From Monosporascus cannonballus (Eukaryota > Ascomycota > Sordariomycetes > Xylariales), in contig QJNS01000158.1 in the NCBI GenBank assembly GCA_004154925.1, positions 62,001 through 126,000 on the forward strand: a DNA stretch of 64,000 nt. The letters are read 5' to 3'. The position numbers and the translations under genes are program-made. Of this stretch, positions 50,518 through 64,000 are shown one piece after another. The notes beneath the pieces were generated by a model that was not told the origin of the DNA, did no database searches, and saw only the letters and a list, made by a program, of their open reading frames with translations. How positions within the stretch are numbered: position 1 is the stretch's first letter; the number at the start of each line of letters is the position of its first letter.

Positions 50518-53500
50518 CGAAGTGTTGCATCACGGCAGCGTCGGGCCGAGATGTCAAAATCAGAGGAAGCTTCCCCAGCCGTGAAACCCCTGGAAACCCC
50601 AATACTGCGAGTCACGTCTCCGTCACCGCGACCCCACTATGATTGGTGAGTTCTACATATATGGGGAATGCCGTCGATATTAGACATTCTAGCAGCCAAG
50701 AACGCTTCCGTTCTCATTACAAGTGACTGGGGTGAATTTAGTTCGTTACCTCCACGTGCTCACTAACATGCCATATAAAGGTAGGGTGCAGACGCCTATA
50801 GAAATTATATGGAATATACATTGGCCACTTCTAGGAAGATCGATCTTTGCTAGTTCGCCATAGCGGTATGCACTCGCAGAACGTCTGAATTAGAGTTTGC
50901 AATGGATACCCAATAGGTACCCACGGACTACCCACGAGCTAACCACTTACGAGTATCCATTAGATAAAAATTATAATAATGTTAAAATATAACAAACTAA
51001 ATTTTTTTTATTTTAAAAATATGATTATTATTAAATACGTATTAATTTATATAATAACCGCTTTGCTTTATAAATTAAATAGAATTAATTATAATTTTTT
51101 TAATTTAGCCAAATTACTTAATTTATTATGTTTTATGAACTAAACAAATATATATTTAAAAAATTATTTCCAAATGTTTTAAAAATAATCGAAAAGATTT
51201 TCAAAAAATATTATTAATATTACTGCCAATTTTATTTTTCTTTTGAAAGCTAAACCAAAAACGGCTTTTTAGAATTATTATATTACCGCTTTATTTTAAA
51301 ACCTAGCCGGGCCGAAAAAATAAAGCGACCAAGATTTATAAAGTTTATAAGCATTATAATCGAAGAAAATTAATTTTTTTTAATATTTTTATAACCGTAA
51401 GCTGAAAGTACAAAGATATTTTTAAGAAATAATTAAAACGACGAAATTTGTAATTCGAATGAAGGCGAAAAAAATATATTAATACGAAAATTAATACGCT
51501 AATAAAATAAGTATATAATTAGTTTATCGAAACTTATAAAATTGGAGGTATAATTTGAATTTATTTACTATTTGAAAAAATAACCTTTTTTAAGCTTTAA
51601 TATCGAAAGATAAAATTTTAATAAAATTAATTAAGAAATTTTTTGTTATTCGTTATTTAAAAATAAATATTAGCAAAATGGTAAAAATAATAAAAAATAA
51701 AGGTAATTTAAACGTTTTTTATTTTTGATTATAAATAGAATCAAAAATACCTAGTAGAAATTTAAATATTAGATTTTTATTACCTAAATAATAAAAGCTT
51801 TATCTAAGCTTGTAATATAAGATTTATGAAAGTTTTTAGAAAAGTTGAACTTAATAAATATAAACATAATATAACTAGTGCTATAAATTAAGTTAATATT
51901 AAATATGCGTATTAATTTACATATTAATTAGTTTACTAATTATCGTTACTTAGCGAAAACACTATAATATTTGTATCTTAAGAAAAGTATTTTCCTCTAG
52001 CATATTTTATAATTACGCCAATAACTATTTACGTAAAATGTTTCGTATATAGGGGTGACGAATAAAAATATAAGATAAGCTTAAGTTTACGATCAAGTGT
52101 TTAAGAAATTTTAGTTAAATATATAAAAAGATAAAGAATTAAATAAATAGAAATCTAGAAAAAAATAATAAAAATTTATCTTTTTTACAACCGATAATAT
52201 AACGTTAAATTTATTCGAAATAAGTATTAATAATTTAGAAAATCTTTCGGCCATAGTATATATCGTATCGTTAATTACTAACGTTAATTTGTCTTCGAAT
52301 TTCAAAAAATAAAGATAATAATAGGTCGTATTATCCCATTATAATAAAGCGATTTGTTCGTTTTTCGAAAGCTTTTTTTCGAAAACAAATTTATATTTTC
52401 CGTTAATAAACGTCTATAAAAATTATTATCTAAATCAGAAATTTATAAAATAACTAATCCAAATTACTTATAATCGCTTTTATTATACTAGAACGTAATT
52501 TAAGGTCGATATTATATTAAGTTGCATATTACTTTAGGTATTTGTTTTACAAATAACTAAAATAATTAATACAAAAATTAATACGTTATTAAATGCGAAA
52601 TTTATAACAAATTATTAACGGCATTTATAATGTTTTTATAGGCTTTATTTTGAACAATAAAGTCCGGTTTAGAATGTTTTTATCTTAAGTTGTTTTATTA
52701 CAGTAAATCTTAATTCGTAATATTTGTTGAGCATTTTTACGGCCTTTTTATTAGAATTTTTACGAAAAAGTTTTTCGTTACGGTTTTGTCTTTTCGCAAT
52801 ATATTTATTATTTAAATACGTATCGTCAGATTTACGACGTTTGCAAAAAGGTTTATAACTATTTTTTTTGAAAGCTAGTATTATGTTAAATAGAATAAGA
52901 TATTAATTAATACGAAAATTAATATATATTAATACGAAAATATAAGATATTTATATTTTGGCCTAATATTTGCAGTGTAAAAAAAGTAATTCTTTATTTA
53001 TTATAAAATTTACTTTAAATTAATTTTAAATATTAAAATTATTATCGTATTATTAATGCGATTAAAAATATAAAAAATAATATAAATGCCTTATTTTATA
53101 ATAGAAATACGTTAAAACGGAAATTTAATACTTAGTATATAAATTAAAAAAGGTGAAGTAAATATATATATAATTAAACTCTTTAAAAAAGTCCCGGCTA
53201 TATTTCGAGTAAACTTTTTTTATTAAAAAATATATTATATTTAATATACGATTTTAGAAAAAAAACTTTAAACTTATTAGTTTATAAATTTATTTAATTA
53301 AACGGAAATCTTTTTAGTAAATAATAACTTTTTTCGCGTAAATCGAATAAAAGTTATTATTAATAAATAACGTAATGAATTTATTTTCCACCGTTTTCTG
53401 TAATATTTTTAATACGAATCGTTAAATTCTAAAATCGTTTTCTAATTATATATTAAATAGGATTTCTCGAATCATAAGCCTAAAAACGATTATAAAATTA

Positions 53501-53599
53501 ACAAAATATATAATTTCTGAAATTGCTTAGTTTTACGTAAACCTCTTTTTTTTAAGTCTAAAACCGTATTAATTAATGTATTAATCTTGTAATCTATAA

Positions 53600-53830
53600 C
53601 TTACTCCCTGGTTTAAAGCGACGATACCAAGCCTGTGTTCTAATCTTTTTTTTTGCACCTGGTAACTATAAGCACTTTGTTTCGGGACTTGTCCTTGCTT
53701 AGTAAAAGCAGTCGGCGGTTATTATTGAGATAATCTAGTCGTTTTTATCGTTCGAATTGCAGTCGGCGATTGTTATTAGAATAATCTAGTCGCTTTTGTT
53801 ATTCGAATTCCCGAGATAAGAGTTTCGTTT
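53600..53830. other. Island of ordinary composition inside the AT-rich block
   Basis: About 230 bp with balanced base content and intact CpA/TpG, for example CAAGCCTGTG and GCACCTGG. It includes the 51-bp tandem repeat at 53708-53809. No coding frame. Confidence 0.7.
53708..53809. repeat. 51-bp tandem duplication
   Basis: Two adjacent copies (53708-53758, 53759-53809), each beginning GCAGTCGGCG and ending TCGAATT, differing at a few positions; AATAATCTAGTCG or GATAATCTAGTCG is central in both. Confidence 0.85.
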
Positions 53831-54399
53831 TTAAAAAAAATAAGATTAATAATAATAATAATAATAATAAAAGATAAATTTACAAAATAATTAAACTATA
53901 TATTATTACGATTATTCAGGGTTTTTCTTATAATATCGCCTAATATGCGATATAATAAAAATATAACTTTATTTATTAGAAAAAGCATTCTAGCTATATA
54001 GAACGCGAAAAAATTAAAAGGAGAAATAATATCAAATTTTTAAAATTTATTCGAAAATTCCGAAATAAAATAAGCGCTAAATAAATAATTCGGATAATAA
54101 ATAATCCTGTTATAATATTATGCGTACATACTTTATTTGAATTTTATTTTTAGATTTTCGTCCGTATTAATTTTCTATTTTCAACTTATTAATCTTTTTA
54201 CTTTTAGCATATTAATTTTTTGTTTTCAAATTGCTGATTACATATAAATACATTTAATAACATAGTTTGGAACATAATTAAAATACTATTCGAACTTAAT
54301 ATTATAAAATATTATCACTTATTATCGACTTTTTTAGCCAAATTATAATCGACAAAGACAATTTTAGATCGAGCTTTATCGAAAAAGTTGTCGAAATAA

Positions 54400-57300
54400 A
54401 AAATTAATTATAAAAATTAAATAATGCCTTATACGATCAAAGTAAAAACGAAAGCGAAAATAAAAGCGAATCTAAATTTGGAAAGTAACTTAATATCGAG
54501 GACGAAAACGAATTTAAAGATAATTACGTGTTCGACGAAATAGATTATAAAAAAAGTAACGAGAAATTAAAAAACGAATTTAATTATAAAAACGAAAAAC
54601 ATTTTAACAAATTAGATAACGATAAATTACGTAACAAATACGCTAAAAAATGATTAAATCTCAAGCTTAACTAGAGTTTAGTTTACAGTTCGAAAATAAC
54701 GTATAAAAATATTCGAACTATTTTTACGATTTAGTATTTTAATATATTACGTTTATAAAGCGATAAACGCCGAAATATTTAAAACGTAGTTTATATAGCG
54801 GTCGTGGTTTTAAGAAAAAGTTATCTTCGATAACGATATAAATAAGGTATTTTTTCAAAAAATTTTCGTTTTTAATTAAAGATTTTAATATTAGCAGAGC
54901 TGGTTTTATAGCGTAACTTTAGAAATAAGTTAGTTCATAATAATTCGTTAATTTTATTATAACATTGAAATATATTCGAAATTAAATAAAAATAATTATA
55001 GTATTACTTTATTAACAAAACAATATAAATAATAAATTTTGCGAAAAAAATTAACTCGATATAGGAAAAATTAAGTTACTACAGATTTTATTATAGATAA
55101 GATTTCTTAATACGTACTATTTATCGTATTAATTATTATATTAATTATAGTTTAATAATATTTATCTAACGTTGTTAAAATCTTGTCCGAAAATAATCGT
55201 TATATAGTTAAGATATAGACTAGCTTGTATTTATTTTTTAACATGCTCGAAAATTCGCATTTTATTAATTAGGTTCGATATATATACCTTATTTATAATT
55301 TTTCAATTTTCGTATATTTTAGGACAGATATAAAAAGTGCGCAAATGAAGTCGTATAGTTAAAGTTATAAGATTTTTTTCTAAATTTTACGTTTTAATAA
55401 TTATTAACGTTTAGATTTCTTCTAGTTTAGCATAAAGTTTCTAAAATATATATGTATATATAAAGAAAGTTGAATATTCTAATATTATACAAGGCGTTAA
55501 AAAATACGAATTTCATATAAAAGTCCAGGTTATAACAGTAAATAGCGAAACGAATTTCGGTATACAACATTTTAGAAAATATAAAAAAATAGAAATAAAT
55601 TTAAAAGGCGAATTATTTCCATTATTTTTCGCATTTCTAATAAAATATTAATAGGCGTTTTTTTAAACTTTTAAAAGTTACAAATAGCGCAAATATAAAA
55701 CATTATGTGAGTTTAAAAATAAAGAAAAACGAGAAAAAAACAATTAAAATTAAGCAAATTAAGTCCGATATGGCTAATTGTATTATAACAAAAATTCGTT
55801 AACATTTGTTATTTCGCTAATAACGTCGTATTAATTTTTAGCCAATTTAAATTAGATAATTCGTAATATATATCAATTTTAGTATCAAACGCTAGTAACA
55901 GTTTAGAGGCGTATAAGTTATTTTCAAAAAGAAAAATATTTTAAATATCTAAAAATTACTGCAAATTATTCGAAACGTAAAGATTCGTTAAAGCTCTATA
56001 GTATATATGCTTATCCGAGTTCGTCGATTAAGACTTGTAATCGAGGATTATATATATCGCGAAAAAATATCTGGTTTCAAAATTACGAAAATTATCTAGA
56101 ATATTATAAATTACTTTATCGATATTTGTAAACCGTTTTTCTTATTATTACACCTTTTTGGTGTTTCGAAAAATTCGAATTATAATTATATTTTTATAAT
56201 ATTTAAACCTATAAAAAAGTGTTTTTATAAATATGAAATTTATTTGTAAAATCGAATTTTTATTAATATTTTATAACCTTGCTTTCAAAAATATTTTAAA
56301 TTATTTAAAATTACGTTAAACTTTTTCAGATTTATATTAACACACCTTTTAAAATTAACAAATATTATCTTATTTTTGTTATATTTTTATATTCTTTGTT
56401 CGATTCGAAAACAGAAGTTTATTACGATAAATAAAAATCGTTTTTAGACTAATTATTTGCAAACCATTTTTTTCCCGATAAAATAATTCGTTATTTTAAA
56501 TATAGTTATAAGTTTTATTACGAAAAATATAGAAATAACGTAACGAAGCTATTTTGCTAATAGCGTATTAATCGAAGCCTATGGAAAATTATAATCGAAA
56601 ATATTAAAACTTCTTAAAAGGTATTTATTTTTTCGTATTATTTTTTTTCAGTAATACCTTTACTAATATTTAATAACGTATTTTTTCGAACTTATTAAAT
56701 CTCGATAACAGTTAATCTTAGGAACAAATCGTCGACTATTATCTAGAAATACGTAAATTATATAAGTTTTTAATATAGAGATTAATACGTTAATTAAAAC
56801 GTAGGCTTACCATTTAACTAAATATTTTTTATTTTGACGTAAAATAGAAATATTTTTCTCTAAGCTAGCCGTATTCGTCCATAATTACTTTTATATTTAG
56901 ATTATTATCGTATTAATAAAACGAACGTAATTTTGAGTTAAATTAATTTATTCGCATAATCGTTTAGAATTAAAATACTTTTTATTTAGAATTAGCTTTT
57001 TTATCGTATCTTATCTGCGAAATGCGCGAAAAGATCTACTGCTTAATATTTGGTACGACTATACTGAAAGCAACGAACTTGTCCAAACTGCGAAACGTCG
57101 GCAAAAAAAAATCGAAAAAACTTTCTATACGAAATTTTCGAAAAAAATAAGATTTAAACGTTATCTATTTCACTTTTCACTATTAACGAAATCAATAATT
57201 CCCAACTCGTTTCTTAAACGGCTATATTTCAAATCGATAGCGGAATAACGCCAAATATAGCTAATTTTTTATTAAAATAATAAATCTACTATAATATTAT

Positions 57301-57430
57301 CGTATAACAGGAACCTGGCCAATTAACGCCTTTAGTTAATTTAGGCGCTAGGAAGCAGACGAAAATTGAAAACGCTATAACTGGATCGGCAAAGATACGG
57401 AAAAAGAAATTTTCTAGAAATTCTAAAAAG
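54400..57430 (+). pseudogene. Unidentified RIP-degraded, formerly coding repeat
   Basis: Near 54430-54650 the plus strand reads as a long acidic, Lys/Asn/Asp-rich segment with few stops, and frames from about 55490 to 55760 and near 57000-57130 keep amino-acid-like runs (for example LSKLRNVG at about 57078). With G-to-A and C-to-T changes reversed in thought, these could be one transposon protein, but I recognise no family and cannot name catalytic residues. Confidence 0.35.
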
Positions 57431-57446
57431 TTATCGCAATCTATTA

Positions 57447-57640
57447 GATATAGGGGACATTAGTTATGTTCTTGTATTCAGCTAAGTTGTAGATGCTATC
57501 GCACGCGTACAACTCTAAGTAGCTAAGCCACGGAACATATATGAGCCGATTAGTATGAGACCTTTTCGTATATAGAGAGCGCTCTACACTTCTCAGCTAG
57601 CTAATACAATCCGTTCAAAAACGTACACCAAAAAGAAATA
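57447..57640. other. Island of ordinary composition inside the AT-rich block
   Basis: About 190 bp with balanced composition between two RIP-degraded stretches. It contains several short GCTA/AGCT-rich palindromic pieces and no coding frame. Possibly a solo LTR or MITE; ends not resolved. Confidence 0.6.
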
Positions 57641-58241
57641 GGCGTACTGCTAATTAATTTATACATTATTAAGTAATAAAAATAGTTTAGTTTAATTCGT
57701 TATAATATATTCGGATTTATAACTTTAGTTAAATAATACTTTCTTTATAAAATCTTCTTTATATAATTTATTTTATTAAATATAGTTCAAATAAGTTTTT
57801 ATTTTAATTTATTAATAATTTGTTTACTTTATAATATTAAGCGTATTTTAAATTTGGGTTTTTAAATTTTCAAGTATTATTTAATAAATATTTTTAATTA
57901 TAGGCGTATATAAAATTTGTTATATTAAAATAATAATCTTTAAAAAATGAGTTTATAAATGGGTTATCTAAAATATCGTAATACTATCACCTCGTTTTGT
58001 CTACACTATATACAACATACTGCAAATTTTTGCGCGATTGTATTTTGGTGTAATTATACCTCCTTATTAATTTTAATTAATTTCGATTTTGATAATACTT
58101 TTTAAATACGACAAATAATTCTTTCGTTATAGCGCGCGTAAAAACTCGTAAGTTAATACTTGTATTAATTAACGTATTAATTTGCGTATTAATCGATATA
58201 CTAATCTTAATTTAGAACCGCGCGTAATTTCGTAGACCAAA

Positions 58242-58790
58242 GACGTCGAAGATAAAGATCTACCTAAAGACAAAAATACGACTAAAGGCAAAGACAAAGT
58301 TAAGCCGACAGTCAAAAAAATCTTTGCGGATATAACCGGTACAATTAAAAGACCCAGACGATGGAAGCCCGGTAATAAGTATTTTAGACCTTATTAATTA
58401 ATTTTTTAAATAATTTTTTAGTAAGCCGTAGCGTTTCGAAAAATTCGTAAATATTAAAAAGATTTTAGCCTTTTAATACCAAAGGCCTTATTTTAACGTT
58501 TTATACGCGAAATTACTTAAGGTTTATTCGGTGGAACGGATTTCCGATTCCAGCGATTAATTATTAAATTTTTATAAAAAATAATTACAGATATTTTTAT
58601 TACATTTTTACTAATATATTTGCATTAGTAATATATATATTATATTACGTATTAATCGTTAATTATTGTTAATTTACGCTATATTTACGGTAAATGCGTT
58701 ACTTTAATAATAAAAGATATAAAACTTGTTTACTATATAACTAGAATAATAGAACCGGTCGATTCGTTAAGTTTTTCCAGATACGGCGGC
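58242..58790 (+). pseudogene. RIP-degraded histone H3-fold gene relic (H3/CENP-A-like)
   Basis: Read along the plus strand, the frame gives a Lys-rich tail (KGKDKVKPTVKK), then DITGTIKRPRRWKPG, matching the H3 stretch ATGGVKKPHRYRPG. A likely intron follows (GT at 58372, AG near 58421 or 58425), then AVAFRKIRKY-stop-K, matching VALREIRRYQK; LLIPKALF-stop-RFIREIT, matching LLIRKLPFQRLVREI; TDFRFQ, matching TDLRFQ; and a helix with an LQ-like position. After a second probable intron comes GKCVTLIIKDIKLVYYI, matching AKRVTIMPKDIQLARRI. All stops and several substitutions (Arg to Cys, His to Tyr, Gln to stop) are C-to-T or G-to-A changes. Two extra residues between REI and RFQ and the divergent tail separate it from canonical H3 and recall CENP-A, but its class is not settled. 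Non-functional now. Confidence 0.75.
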
Positions 58791-59390
58791 CTTATCCCCA
58801 GGTTTTATTTATCCGTAAAAACCGCGAAAATTCGTATATAACAAAAACAAGAACGAAAGATTTAATAAACCCGAATCCGAGAAAAGCAGTTAAAAAAAGC
58901 AAAACAGTAATAAAATAAGACGTATTTTGTTAAACGAACGAAAAAGTTACGCAGCCTCGAGATTATATATAAAGGCCAGCTAAAATAATTACTAAGCCAA
59001 TACCCGAATAAAATTTATTATTTATTTTCTGCCAGCATTAATACTAATAATTTCGAATTATTTCAGCCTTTAAAAAATAATTTCAAAAAAATAATATGCC
59101 GATTAGTACGGCATTATTTTTGCTATTAATAGTTAGGCTAAAGTATAACATTTAAACGTTTTAAGTACGTTATTAACATATAAATTAATATGGTATTATA
59201 TTACGGTTAATTTTATAGAAATCATAATTCGATTTAAGTATAACAATTACACGTTTTAATTTGGAAATTAATATTTAAAAAAGCATATAACAAGATATAA
59301 TCTTAAATTACGTAAATTTTTTATTTTCGTAATATATAATTTATATTGTGTTTATTTGATAAATGCTTAAGTTTTAAAATAGGTATCTAT

Positions 59391-59690
59391 TGTTACGACC
59401 TGGTCACTCGTAAGAGCTCCAGTATATATGCAGCTGTAAGCACTAGGATGACTGCCACAATTGCGATCCTTCCACCGATCTTTTGCCCTGCTGGCGTGAT
59501 GGTATGGTGCAGCCATAACATCTATAGTTACTTCAGCTAGCTCAGGCCTCCCTGGCTCGTTTTTCCAATTTCTTCAAAGTCACTCAAGTACCGCTCCACA
59601 ACGCTAAATATTAACCAATCAAATCCCAAATCCCCGTAACGAGTTAGCAAGGCCTGAGTTGTAATTACGTAAAAACGGCTTCGTTTAATA
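59391..59690. other. Island of ordinary composition, possible LTR
   Basis: About 300 bp of normal base content. It opens with TGTTACGACCTGG, like the 5' end of many fungal Gypsy LTRs (TGTTA...), contains TATATATG, and lies directly upstream of the chromovirus internal region. A matching 3' terminus (…ACA) and primer-binding site are not clear, so an unrelated later insertion is possible. Confidence 0.45.
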
Positions 59691-62600
59691 TATTTACTTT
59701 TTTTAAAAAAATCCGTAATAACTTAATAATAAAATATTTTGTTATAAATATATATATATATTGTTATTTTTGCTATAGCTTATTATTAATATTATTTTGG
59801 TCCTAATTAGGACCTATTTGCTATTTTTAAACCGTAATGCATATAATAATTGCTGTTCGAACTTATCGTATTATTATCCTCTTTTTCAAAATACGATAAA
59901 TCCGAATTCTTTTAATTTTACTAGGCTACGCCCTTAAAACAAATTATACGTACGCGTATCTTAAATTACTGGCATTAATATAAAAAAATTAATAAGAACG
60001 ATAAATAATAGTATCGATATTTTCGATTTATAACTTTAGAAAATATTTAATAATTAGCCGAAATAAAAAATTAGCTCGAAAAAAAATAATACCTATAGAA
60101 AAACCCCTTTTGTTATTTCTAATAATATAATCATCAAACGAAAAAAATTGATTTAGCATATAGTAAAAAAGTATTACTAGAAAATTATTATAAATTTTTA
60201 TATTTAGTTAATATTTATTATAAACCCTTACAAAAAAAGGTTATTAAGAAAATAATACGGTAATTTATAAGAAAGCTTTAAAACGATAATTAAAATAACG
60301 TATAATAGAATATAATCGCAAATATAAGAAAACAATTTATTCAATAAAGAAAGGAATTATAGCAAAATTAAAAGCAATTAATATGAATTAAAAGACAAGT
60401 ACGCCGACAATAATAATAAATATAGCAGCTTAACGCGTTAAATACAAAAATACAAATAAGGCTTGACAAATTCGAATAAGAATTAAAAAAAAGTTACTTA
60501 TAAAAAAACCACAAATAACGAAACATAGAAAAATCAGAAAGAACTTCCGAAAAAGGCTTTAAACGCGACGATAAAAGCCGTTAATAACTCTATTATTTTG
60601 GATATATAAATCGGAACGTACTAGTATACCGTAATAATAGATTATAGAGCTCTGGGCGGAAATTACATTACACCAGATATGGTTAATAAGTTTAGATTGT
60701 TATAGAGATATAAATTAAAACCTTATATAATAACAAATACCGAAGATTAGGAATTCGTTTACAATAACGAAAAAATCATACGCGAAATTAATTACTTCGA
60801 GATTTTTATCTAAGAACGATATCAAATAATTGATTTCGATATCGTTTTACTTAGAAATTACGATATAATTTTTAAGATTATTATAAATACGCCAGCAGAA
60901 AATCTTAATTAATAAAAGGATTAGTTAGGTAAGGTTTATCTTATATTTTATCAGCAAACAAAAAAATTAAGATCTTAATACTTAATCGATAATGGCGACG
61001 AATGCAAGCATAAAGATACGATAGAAACCTTACCACCCAAAAGGACAAAATACAAAAAAAGAATAGGTATCAAAAAAATACGACGTATCGTTATTATTAT
61101 TAAAACGAAATTAAAGCAACTAAATAACGATTTAAAATAATAGCAGCCTTAAAAACCAGAAAATCTAACTAATATATTACTATAATTCCTTAGATACGAA
61201 TAGCTTTTTTAAAAAAAACTTAATACGAAATTACTAAAACATAACAAATAAAATCATAAGATAATCCTTAAGGAAAGATCTTTTATAAAGTTTTACCCCA
61301 TTTACAATCTTAGCGAAAATAAATTACGTACTTTTAGAACATACCTGGAAAATCGGCTATAAAAAGGATGGATTCGACTTTCGAAGTTACCAGTAGAATA
61401 CTTTAAGTTTTTCGTATTAAAGAAAAACGAAATATTACGACTTATAATTAATTATTAATAACTAAATAACATTATTATTAAAGATCGAATATTATTATCT
61501 CTGATTATAGAAATAAACGACCGATTTTATAAAGCTAAATAGTTTATAGTATTCGATTTTAAAAATAAATATAACCTTATTAAAATTTTAAAAAATACAA
61601 ATAGAAAATAACCTTTAAAACGAAATACGGACTGTTTAAGTATTTGATTATACTAATAGAACTTACGAACGTACTAGCAACTTTCCAACGGATAATTAAC
61701 TATATGCTACGAAAATACCTCGATATTTTCGTTATTTGCTATTTTAACGATATTTTTATTTTCTTAAAAACGGAAAAAACGCATACAAAATACGTTTACA
61801 AAGTTTTTTAAGCTGTATAAAATACAAAGTTACTTATTAACGCAAAAAAAATTATTTTACGCATAAAAAATAAAATATCTGGGACATATTATTACTTCAG
61901 AATATATCAGAATGGATTTTAAGAAAATTACTGCAATTATAAAATGGCAAACGCTAACGATAATCAAAAAGGTATAAATATATTTTGGATTCGCCAATTA
62001 CTATAAAAAGTTTATTCGAAACTTAACAAAATAACTATACCCTTAATAAATCTTACAAAGAAGAAAAAGTTTAAATAAACGTCCAAAACGAAAAAAACGT
62101 TTTAGAATATTAAGAATACGATTACCAGCGAGCTAATATTAATTATGTACGATTTAAACTGCCACGTTAAATTAGAAATCGATATTTCGAATTACGCGTT
62201 AAACGTAATAATTGAATAATAAAATAATTAAAATAAATTATATTCTATTATATTCTATTCGTATAAATTAAAAAAAACTAAGCTTAATAAGAGCATTTCA
62301 AATAAAAATTTATGGCCATTATTATGGCATTTCAAAAGTTTCGGCATTTTCTAAAGAAAAGCTTGCACTAAATCAAGGTTTATACGGATTATCAAAATCT
62401 TATCCAATTTACTATAACCAGAAAATTTAACGGACGATAATTTCGTTACGCGAAAAAATTGGCGAACTTTAACTTTGTTATTATTTATAAGAAAGGCTTA
62501 GAAAATAACAAAGCGGACGCTTTAAATAAACAATCAAACTTCGAAAAGAAATTAGTTAAAATTAGTTAAATAATTTTCGATACTACTATAAAAAATATTT

Positions 62601-64000
62601 ACGCCCGTAATAAATTACGACAATTCGAGCAGTACCTTTCGATATGTACTAAAAAAATCTAGTAATACAACGATAATCTCTTAAAAAACCAAAGAATAAA
62701 CAAAATACAAATTCTAGAAAAATACTACAAGGATCTAGTACGAAAAATATACGAATACTAGTTACATAGACATTTAGAGATCCATAAAACCCTAAAACGA
62801 TTTTAAAGCATATATTCTTTTTTTAAAATAAAATTAACGATACAGAAAATCATACGATAATATAATATTTACGCCAGAATAAAGATTCGACGACATAAGC
62901 TATACGAAAAATTACAACTATTATCAGTTACAAAGCAAATATAATATTTAATTATATTCAACTTTTTTATCAAACTTTTTATATTAGAAAATATATTTAT
63001 AGAAATATATTACGATAGCATTTTGGTAATCGTCAACCGTTTTACAAAATTTTTTTATTTTTTTACAATATTAAGAAAATATAAACGCCGAACAAATAAT
63101 ATATATTTTCTTTAAAATTAGTTTCAGCGTATGCGAATTACTAACAGAAATTATTTTAAATAAAGGATTAATATTTGCATTTAAGTTTTGACAAAGCCTT
63201 ATAGCGTAAATCGACCTTAATTACAAATTATTTAACGTATCAAAACCTTAAATAAATAAATAAATAAAACGAATAAATTAAATTTTAAACATTTATTTAC
63301 GATATTATATAAATTACGAATAAAATAAGTAAGTTACAAAATTGCGAATCGCATAATTGGCTTATAATACTAGTTATTACGAAAATTTTAAAATAATACT
63401 TATAAATACAAATTTTGGTTTTATTTTAAAAATTTATAAAAAAGTACGCGATAAAGATTTAATTAATATTAAAGCAATTTTTACGTTAAACTAATTACGA
63501 TAATTATATTAAGAAATAAAGATAAAATTAGAATTTGTATAAAATTAAATAAGTAAGTATTACGACAACAAAGTTAAAAAAACTAATTTTCGAAAAAGAG
63601 AAAATAGTTTTTTTATTACAAAAAATATTTAAATAAAACAACTTAATAACAATTTCGATTTTAAATATATCGATCCATATAAAATCGTTAAAGAAATCTT
63701 AAAAAATAATTATTAATTAGAACTTTTACCAAAATTTAAATTTTATTTAATTTTATATATTTTTTTACTTAAGTTAATAATAGATATAATTAAAATATAT
63801 ATAGTATAAGACGATATGAAAGTAAAAGACGAATAGACATATGAAATTGAGAAAATTTTCGATATGCAAAAATAAGACGGATTTACCTAATACCTGATTA
63901 AGTGGAAAAAGTATTCGGATTTCGAAAATATCTAGAAACCTGCCAAAAATCTTATTGGCGCCTAACGCCTATTAAAAAAATTTTATTAGCAATGCCGAAA
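59691..64000 (+). mobile_element. RIP-degraded Ty3/Gypsy chromovirus (gag region and pol), truncated by window end
   Basis: Domains in order despite frequent stops. Gag-like charged region about 59.9-60.6 kb. Aspartic protease about 60.61-60.93 kb, with the active-site region now reading D-Y-R-A-L-G-G-N-Y-I and a downstream NYDIIF (hydrophobic-hydrophobic-G type) motif. Reverse transcriptase about 61.31-61.96 kb, with FFVLKKNE, IIKDRILL, FIVFDFKNKYNLIKI and the YLDD site decayed to YFND at about 61740-61752. RNase H about 62.11-62.56 kb, with YTDYQNL (62385) and KADALNKQ (62512). Integrase about 62.6-63.5 kb, with DSILVIVNRFTKF (63013). A FYILYIFLLK-like stretch marks the integrase end, then a chromodomain. 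The order RT-RNaseH-integrase-chromodomain defines chromoviruses. Inactive. Confidence 0.9.
63840..63990 (+). pseudogene. Chromodomain at the end of the chromovirus pol
   Basis: The frame reads YEIEKIFDMQK, then YLIKWKKYSDFENI and KPAKNLIGA, matching the chromodomain pattern Y-x-V-E-x-I-L ... YLVKWKGY-x(3)-ENTWEP-x-NL. Three in-frame stops are at sites where Gln or Trp is expected. In active elements this domain binds H3K9-methylated nucleosomes and targets integration to heterochromatin. Confidence 0.85.

Follow-up and report, generated by a model that had tools for sequence, protein, structure and literature searches.

According to the accessible text of two reports, H3 genes inside RIP-killed hAT elements are of a kind already published for Dothideomycetes (PMC6710886, PMC3538342). 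Dhillon et al. (2019, PMC6710886) described hAT elements of about 9.5 kb from Pseudocercospora fijiensis and five other Mycosphaerellaceae (6 of the 12 examined), with one or two H3-like copies that were killed by RIP; in the part of that paper available to us, no introns are reported in the element H3s, and a captured transcript is inferred. Manning et al. (2013, PMC3538342) described an intact hAT element with an H3-like gene, H3L, in Pyrenophora tritici-repentis. The object of our analysis was a window of 64,000 nucleotides from contig C81 (QJNS01000158.1, positions 62,001 to 126,000 of the forward strand) of the sordariomycete Monosporascus cannonballus, for which a relic of an H3-like gene had been proposed from the sequence alone. 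The accompanying opinion that mobile or repeat-borne genes of this type had not been described is contradicted by these publications, as far as their accessible parts show.

As described in that accessible text, the Mycosphaerellaceae elements resemble the one found here in being DNA transposons of similar size (about 9.5 kb versus about 8.6 kb here) with terminal inverted repeats (TIRs), an 8-bp target site duplication (TSD) and one or two H3-like copies, and in being present in many RIP-inactivated copies in AT-rich blocks. They differ in that they come from Dothideomycetes and their H3s are reported without introns, whereas the H3 genes found here come from a sordariomycete, contain introns, and are represented by two open frames on contig C90; their TIRs of 18–20 bp, compared by description, are longer than the 11 bp read here. 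It may be speculated that the 16-residue insertion in the second Mycosphaerellaceae H3 copy is an unrecognized intron. The P. tritici-repentis element, compared by description in the available text, is likewise a hAT-type element with a transposase, an H3-like gene that can be assigned to neither H3 nor CenH3, and an additional ORF without known function, but it is 5.6 kb in size, carries one H3L, and occurs as near-identical intact copies, in contrast to the two H3s and heavy RIP observed here.

The plus-strand reading frames at 58,242–58,790 of the window represent pieces of histone H3 split by stops and intron-like stretches. When the window exons were joined manually, with stops replaced by X, they matched the Pfam Histone model with 41.6 bits (E = 1.8e-10), and the top PDB matches were chains of H3 and of H3/CENP-A chimeras, with E values down to 2e-13. 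Independently of this joining, a six-frame genome search with the protein of the homologous gene, H3-B, of the best-preserved element copy at C90 matched C81:120206-121081(+), corresponding to window positions 58206–59081, with E = 2.8e-65 and 53% identity over residues 4–261, reading through 18 stops. Such a frame-tolerant match rules out chance resemblance to H3 and is not confined to one short motif. Sequence comparison confirms that this locus is a RIP-degraded histone H3 gene, located where the relic of a divergent H3-fold gene had been proposed. The proposed span of 58242–58790 was correct in location and too short in extent: the gene begins with a former start codon at 58129–58131, now ATA, and continues in the 3' direction to 59081 as a C-terminal extension. 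Introns had also been rightly recognized, although the alignment with the C90 copy reveals three of them instead of two. A six-frame scan of the genome (88.8 Mb in 618 contigs) with PF00125 gave 63 matches at E ≤ 1, and the H3-B locus of the window was not among them; the general family model is therefore too weak for this gene.

The remnant lies within a DNA transposon of about 8.6 kb (see the table). DNA comparison showed that the region from 50.9 to 59.4 kb of the window is one repeat, which among the fetched stretches is also present at C90, C118, and C570, in agreement with the expectation that the gene was multicopy or travelled in a repeat. The 11-bp TIRs are flush with an 8-bp TSD that has one C/T mismatch between its two copies. 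The transposase gene is located between two H3 genes, on the strand of H3-B, and a third gene, for which no Pfam family was found, lies beyond the second H3 gene, H3-A.

Table. Features of the H3-carrying transposon and its insert. Coordinates are those of the window unless the contig is given.
Feature	Position	Strand	Basis or remark
Left target site duplication, 8 bp	50883..50890	.	GTCTGAAT; paired with right copy GCCTGAAT
Left terminal inverted repeat	50891..50901	.	TAGAGTTTGCA; starts at C81:112891; one change from TAGGGTTTGCA of C90
DNA transposon body	50891..59390	.	Repeat common to C90, C118, C570; ends read; RIP indices
Third gene remnant	51527..52854	-	tblastn; query, pieces of the C90 gene joined by X
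Second H3 gene remnant, H3-A type	53260..53955	-	13 stops; E 2.0e-37, 48% identity to C90 H3-A
hAT-like transposase gene remnant (putative)	54324..56751	+	Six tblastn pieces matching P0241 (query, its first 680 residues); best E 2.65e-55
H3-B gene remnant	58129..59081	+	Alignment to C90 copy; frame-tolerant match covers 58206-59081
H3-B remnant introns	about 58148-58215, 58375-58425, 58614-58665	+	Alignment with C90
Nested retrotransposon-like insert	59391..64000, on to C81:127013 beyond window	+	Start TGTTACGACC
Transposon, last 142 bp	C81:127014-127155, beyond window		After nested insert
Right terminal inverted repeat	C81:127145-127155, beyond window		TGCAAACCCTA
Right target site duplication	C81:127156-127163 (window coordinate 65156-65163), beyond window end		GCCTGAAT

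Elements of the hAT type are characterized by an 8-bp TSD flush with short TIRs and a TAGGG-type start. Borders of this type were found both for the window copy, where GTCTGAAT and GCCTGAAT differ by one mismatch, and in a second element family, where ACTTTGCT occurs twice at C489. Transposases of hAT elements have DUF659, hAT dimerisation, and RNase H-like core domains. The transposase found here, represented by the pieces from C90 and by the annotated protein P0241, had no significant Pfam or PDB match, so the name hAT relies on the termini, the TSD, the published parallel, and motifs read by eye, such as TTDVWTS, ITADGGTN, and TRWSSVVYML, which we take to be hAT-like. P0241 carries the precomputed domains PF27041 and PF27039. 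The vehicle is probably a hAT-type DNA transposon encoding a hAT-like transposase. As it is multicopy and has an H3-like gene enclosed by its TIRs, it may be assigned to the H3-carrying hAT elements. A database search with the transposase yielded two proteins among 1707 candidates, both from Monosporascus; in one of them, from strain MC13-8B, seven collinear segments are identical to C90 (533 of 535 residues). NCBI annotates a fused transposase and H3-B protein in two Monosporascus strains (P0241 and P0242). Since portions of the transposase and of the H3 fold are missing from each of the two models, the fusion was taken for a putative prediction artefact.

The direction of mutations in the window copy is that of RIP. 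Relative to C90, window H3-B has 222 transitions, 218 of them from C/G to T/A, and 18 transversions at 1018 aligned sites, which bears out the suggestion that the relic was RIP-mutated. The TpA/ApT and (CpA+TpG)/(ApC+GpT) indices are 1.23 and 0.45 for the H3-B gene and 1.14 and 0.53 for the element body in the window. The corresponding values are 0.84 and 1.12 for positions 1–50000 of the window, and the C90 element has 0.93 and 1.03. The window element, being multicopy, with an excess of C-to-T and G-to-A changes, high TpA, and low CpA/TpG, is a RIP-mutated repeat.

The transposon is interrupted by retrotransposon-like DNA of about 5.6 kb, which separates its final 142 bp from the rest. The original prediction placed the H3 gene upstream of a retrotransposon; the two are indeed adjacent, but this DNA is an insert nested in the H3-bearing transposon from about 59391. 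The close spacing in the window, along with strong matches to the retrotransposon-like repeat at seven of the nine contigs fetched with histone elements, would fit an H3 gene that belonged to the adjoining retrotransposon. However, the entry points of the repeat differ between loci (six junctions were read), C90 lacks it, and the transposon end and TSD resume on the far side of the insert. The far terminus and TSD refute a retrotransposon origin of the H3 gene at the window locus, and we regard this reading as extremely improbable. The repeat, starting with TGTTACGACC or a close variant, was also found at C118:140284, C570:29028, C33:191160, C511:213900, and C522:133200, and may favor the DNA of histone elements. 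Its first part of about 260 bp in the window (59393–59650) has a GC content of 0.465 and a CpA/TpG index of 1.29, that is, no RIP signature by this index, while the insert body (59990–64000) is heavily mutated (GC 0.225, index 0.58).

Intact homologues of the window gene, whose existence in the same genome was to be checked, are available at C90, where two H3-type frames are open. Gene models based on splice signals and H3 homology gave a 265-aa H3-B with three introns on the minus strand (443568-443500, 443340-443285, and 443095-443044) and a 237-aa H3-A with one intron on the plus strand (448112-448168). They matched Pfam Histone with 119 and 86.9 bits, respectively (cut-off 26.4), and H3-B matched PDB H3 with E = 5.5e-35. 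H3-B has a C-terminal extension, and H3-A has a long N-tail. The match to the core histone domain covers the whole fold, and the window remnant and both C90 genes are accordingly assigned, by sequence, to the histone H3 family. The first intron of C90 H3-B contains several GTACTAATC-like motifs in a row; such repeated motifs, resembling branch sites, are present in element introns of both C90 H3-B and the transposase. Protein searches of the genome gave at least 115 matches for H3-B and at least 95 for H3-A, including cross-matches between the types and host genes. A matching TSD was not found for the C90 copy and its transposase contains stops, so no complete active copy of the element was seen.

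The original prediction also linked the relic to CENP-A. The folds of the element H3s are 50–59% identical to those of host H3 (encoded on C110) and host CENP-A (C5): H3-B shares 54 of 92 residues with host H3 and 47 of 94 with CENP-A, whereas H3-A is about equally distant from both (49/92 and 48/94). Descent from centromeric H3 would agree with loop 1, which in both H3-A and H3-B exceeds that of host H3 by two residues, and with the helix 2 sequence ALQEAAE/ALQEATE, compared with ALQEAAE in host CENP-A. On the other hand, neither protein has in FRxQ the W that marks CENP-A (FRWQ), H3-B is nearer to host H3, and the 31-row H3 tree (3 of the 28 reference proteins were dropped because the search motif was missing), although poorly resolved, groups neither of them with CENP-A. 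An element-borne CENP-A is not supported by these fold identities and this weak tree, and appears very unlikely. Among the best 120 of 3367 database matches for H3-B, most were plant and composite H3 proteins, while the best 120 of 809 for the H3-A fold included an Exserohilum H3-like protein and H3-like proteins of Sclerotiniaceae. The Exserohilum protein has 56% identity in the alignment used for the tree; its grouping with H3-A is weakly supported and involves long branches.

A second element family, with termini TAGGGTGAGGGA, was found at C33, C511, C489, C522, and C13, with the perfect TSD ACTTTGCT at C489. This family, too, has a pair of H3-type genes, termed C and D. In a tblastn search, the transposase of the first family had 25%–36% identity at C13, C33, and C511 (three of the five loci) and no match at C489 or C522. 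Wherever the transposase was seen, both families have the same layout, with one H3 gene upstream, pointing away from the transposase, and the other downstream of it on its strand. Downstream type C scored closer to B than to A at all five loci, and upstream type D closer to A than to B at four of five. Among the DNA matches listed (minimum length 250 bp, E 1e-8), none connects the coding regions of one family with those of the other; the subterminal repeats near their ends are similar.

All four transposon H3 types (A, B, C, and D) have an intron in the same codon, between KPG-T and VALRE. Of 19 stretches, 6 still show the exact donor GTAAGT (B, 3/4; A, 1/4; C, 1/7; D, 1/4); in the remainder the donor is mutated or, in two scored as misses, the place is not covered (the C stretch of C444 is not homologous at the cut, and the A stretch of C81 stops short of the donor). 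The introns of the host genes are located elsewhere: those of host H3 lie between QRLV and REIA and between TIQS and KDIQ, and host CENP-A is intronless at KPG-T. The simplest reading is that a single ancestral element H3 was probably duplicated within the element before the two families diverged. A host-like H3 fragment at C165:13105-13567, with an intron at the host place (between QRL and REV) and one stop, is arranged head to head with an element piece of 169 bp that holds the H3-B start and is 96% identical to C90:443570-443738; host H3 and element DNA may have been combined here a second time.

The shared layout and the shared intron speak for element genes that are old and have been retained, and against a recent capture without introns. 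Passive transduplication, in which a hAT element captures a host H3 transcript or gene and carries it unused, as Dhillon et al. propose for Mycosphaerellaceae in the accessible part of their report (PMC6710886), has this published precedent, and we consider it possible, if doubtful, for Monosporascus. Most copies are dead, as expected for unused cargo: 39 of the 63 PF00125 matches, with host histones counted among the 63, have internal stops. Such a capture is at odds with an intron that host H3 lacks, combined with the absence of the host intron between QRLV and REIA from the element H3s, with two H3 genes in the same arrangement in two families with such distant transposases, and with the open H3 frames in C90.

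Comparison of the C90 protein with a relative from strain mg162 also speaks against passive carriage, since the fold is conserved: 48 of 54 residues of the shared fold part are identical, versus 44 of 105 in the C-terminal extension. Transversions are not made by RIP and were used to look for constraint in 13 of the 14 B copies and in all 14 A copies picked from longer match lists; C604 was left out of the B set because of poor alignment (53% identity). Counted over all steps, their distribution over codon positions was not significant (B, 25/61, P = 0.13; A, 33/79, P = 0.072), which fits transduplication, and pairwise counts by codon position were mixed. For transversions shared by at least two copies, a version of the test chosen after this non-significant result, 16 of 27 in the fold fell at third codon positions (P = 0.005 pooled; 0.027 for B and 0.077 for A). 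Together, these data give modest support for constraint on the H3 fold.

We conclude that the locus is very probably a dead copy of a hAT-type transposon of about 8.6 kb that encoded a transposase, two H3 variants, and a third protein, and that the H3 genes are probably old and retained. The histone identity, borders, multicopy state, direction of mutation, and layout were read directly from the DNA. In the proposed course of events, an element with H3-B downstream of the transposase on its strand and a divergent H3-A on the other side would have inserted with an 8-bp target duplication as one of many copies; this copy would then have been mutated by RIP, and also split by the retrotransposon-like insert. 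The H3 genes would have been old genes of the element, retained without fresh capture.

The products of H3-A and H3-B may have been able to enter nucleosomes with host H4, although this prediction is weaker. It follows from retention in the element H3s, judged by eye, of the sequence around IHxKRVT, KD, and FRxQ, which we take to be the surroundings of H4- and DNA-contact residues. The surroundings of K9 and K27 in H3 are ARKS motifs. Host H3 has two such motifs in its tail, while none was found in the tails of the two element H3s. Since both N-tails lack the ARKS of K9 and K27, nucleosomes containing an element H3 would not take the H3K9 mark, and, speculatively, this could help the element escape silencing. 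In a bolder reading, a lineage of fungal hAT-type transposons would encode, as functional components, a constant pair of H3 variants of its own. These would be nucleosome-competent, have tails without the ARKS of K9 and K27, and keep the heterochromatin mark away from the chromatin of the element; the genes described in other fungi as captured housekeeping genes would then be eroded remains of the same old two-histone lineage. We consider this combination rather unlikely.

A search of the accessible literature on transposon-borne histones and on Monosporascus found the reports PMC6710886 and PMC3538342 and no case from Sordariomycetes, and the main text of PMC7407469, as available, contains neither "histone" nor "transpos". 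As far as this search reaches, the H3-carrying element in Sordariomycetes (Monosporascus, Xylariales) is new, as are the paired-H3 layout common to two families with transposases 25%–36% identical and the intron that the four transposon H3 types have in common and that host H3 and CENP-A lack.

The paired layout and the private intron suggest that the histones have long been part of the transposon itself. The recent-capture reading is questioned by an intron present in the element and missing in host genes and by a two-histone layout common to two deeply diverged families. If the histones are working parts, this would be a transposon bringing its own nucleosome components, and a test case for how mobile DNA deals with chromatin and silencing. 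Even otherwise, H3-carrying hAT elements reach beyond Dothideomycetes.
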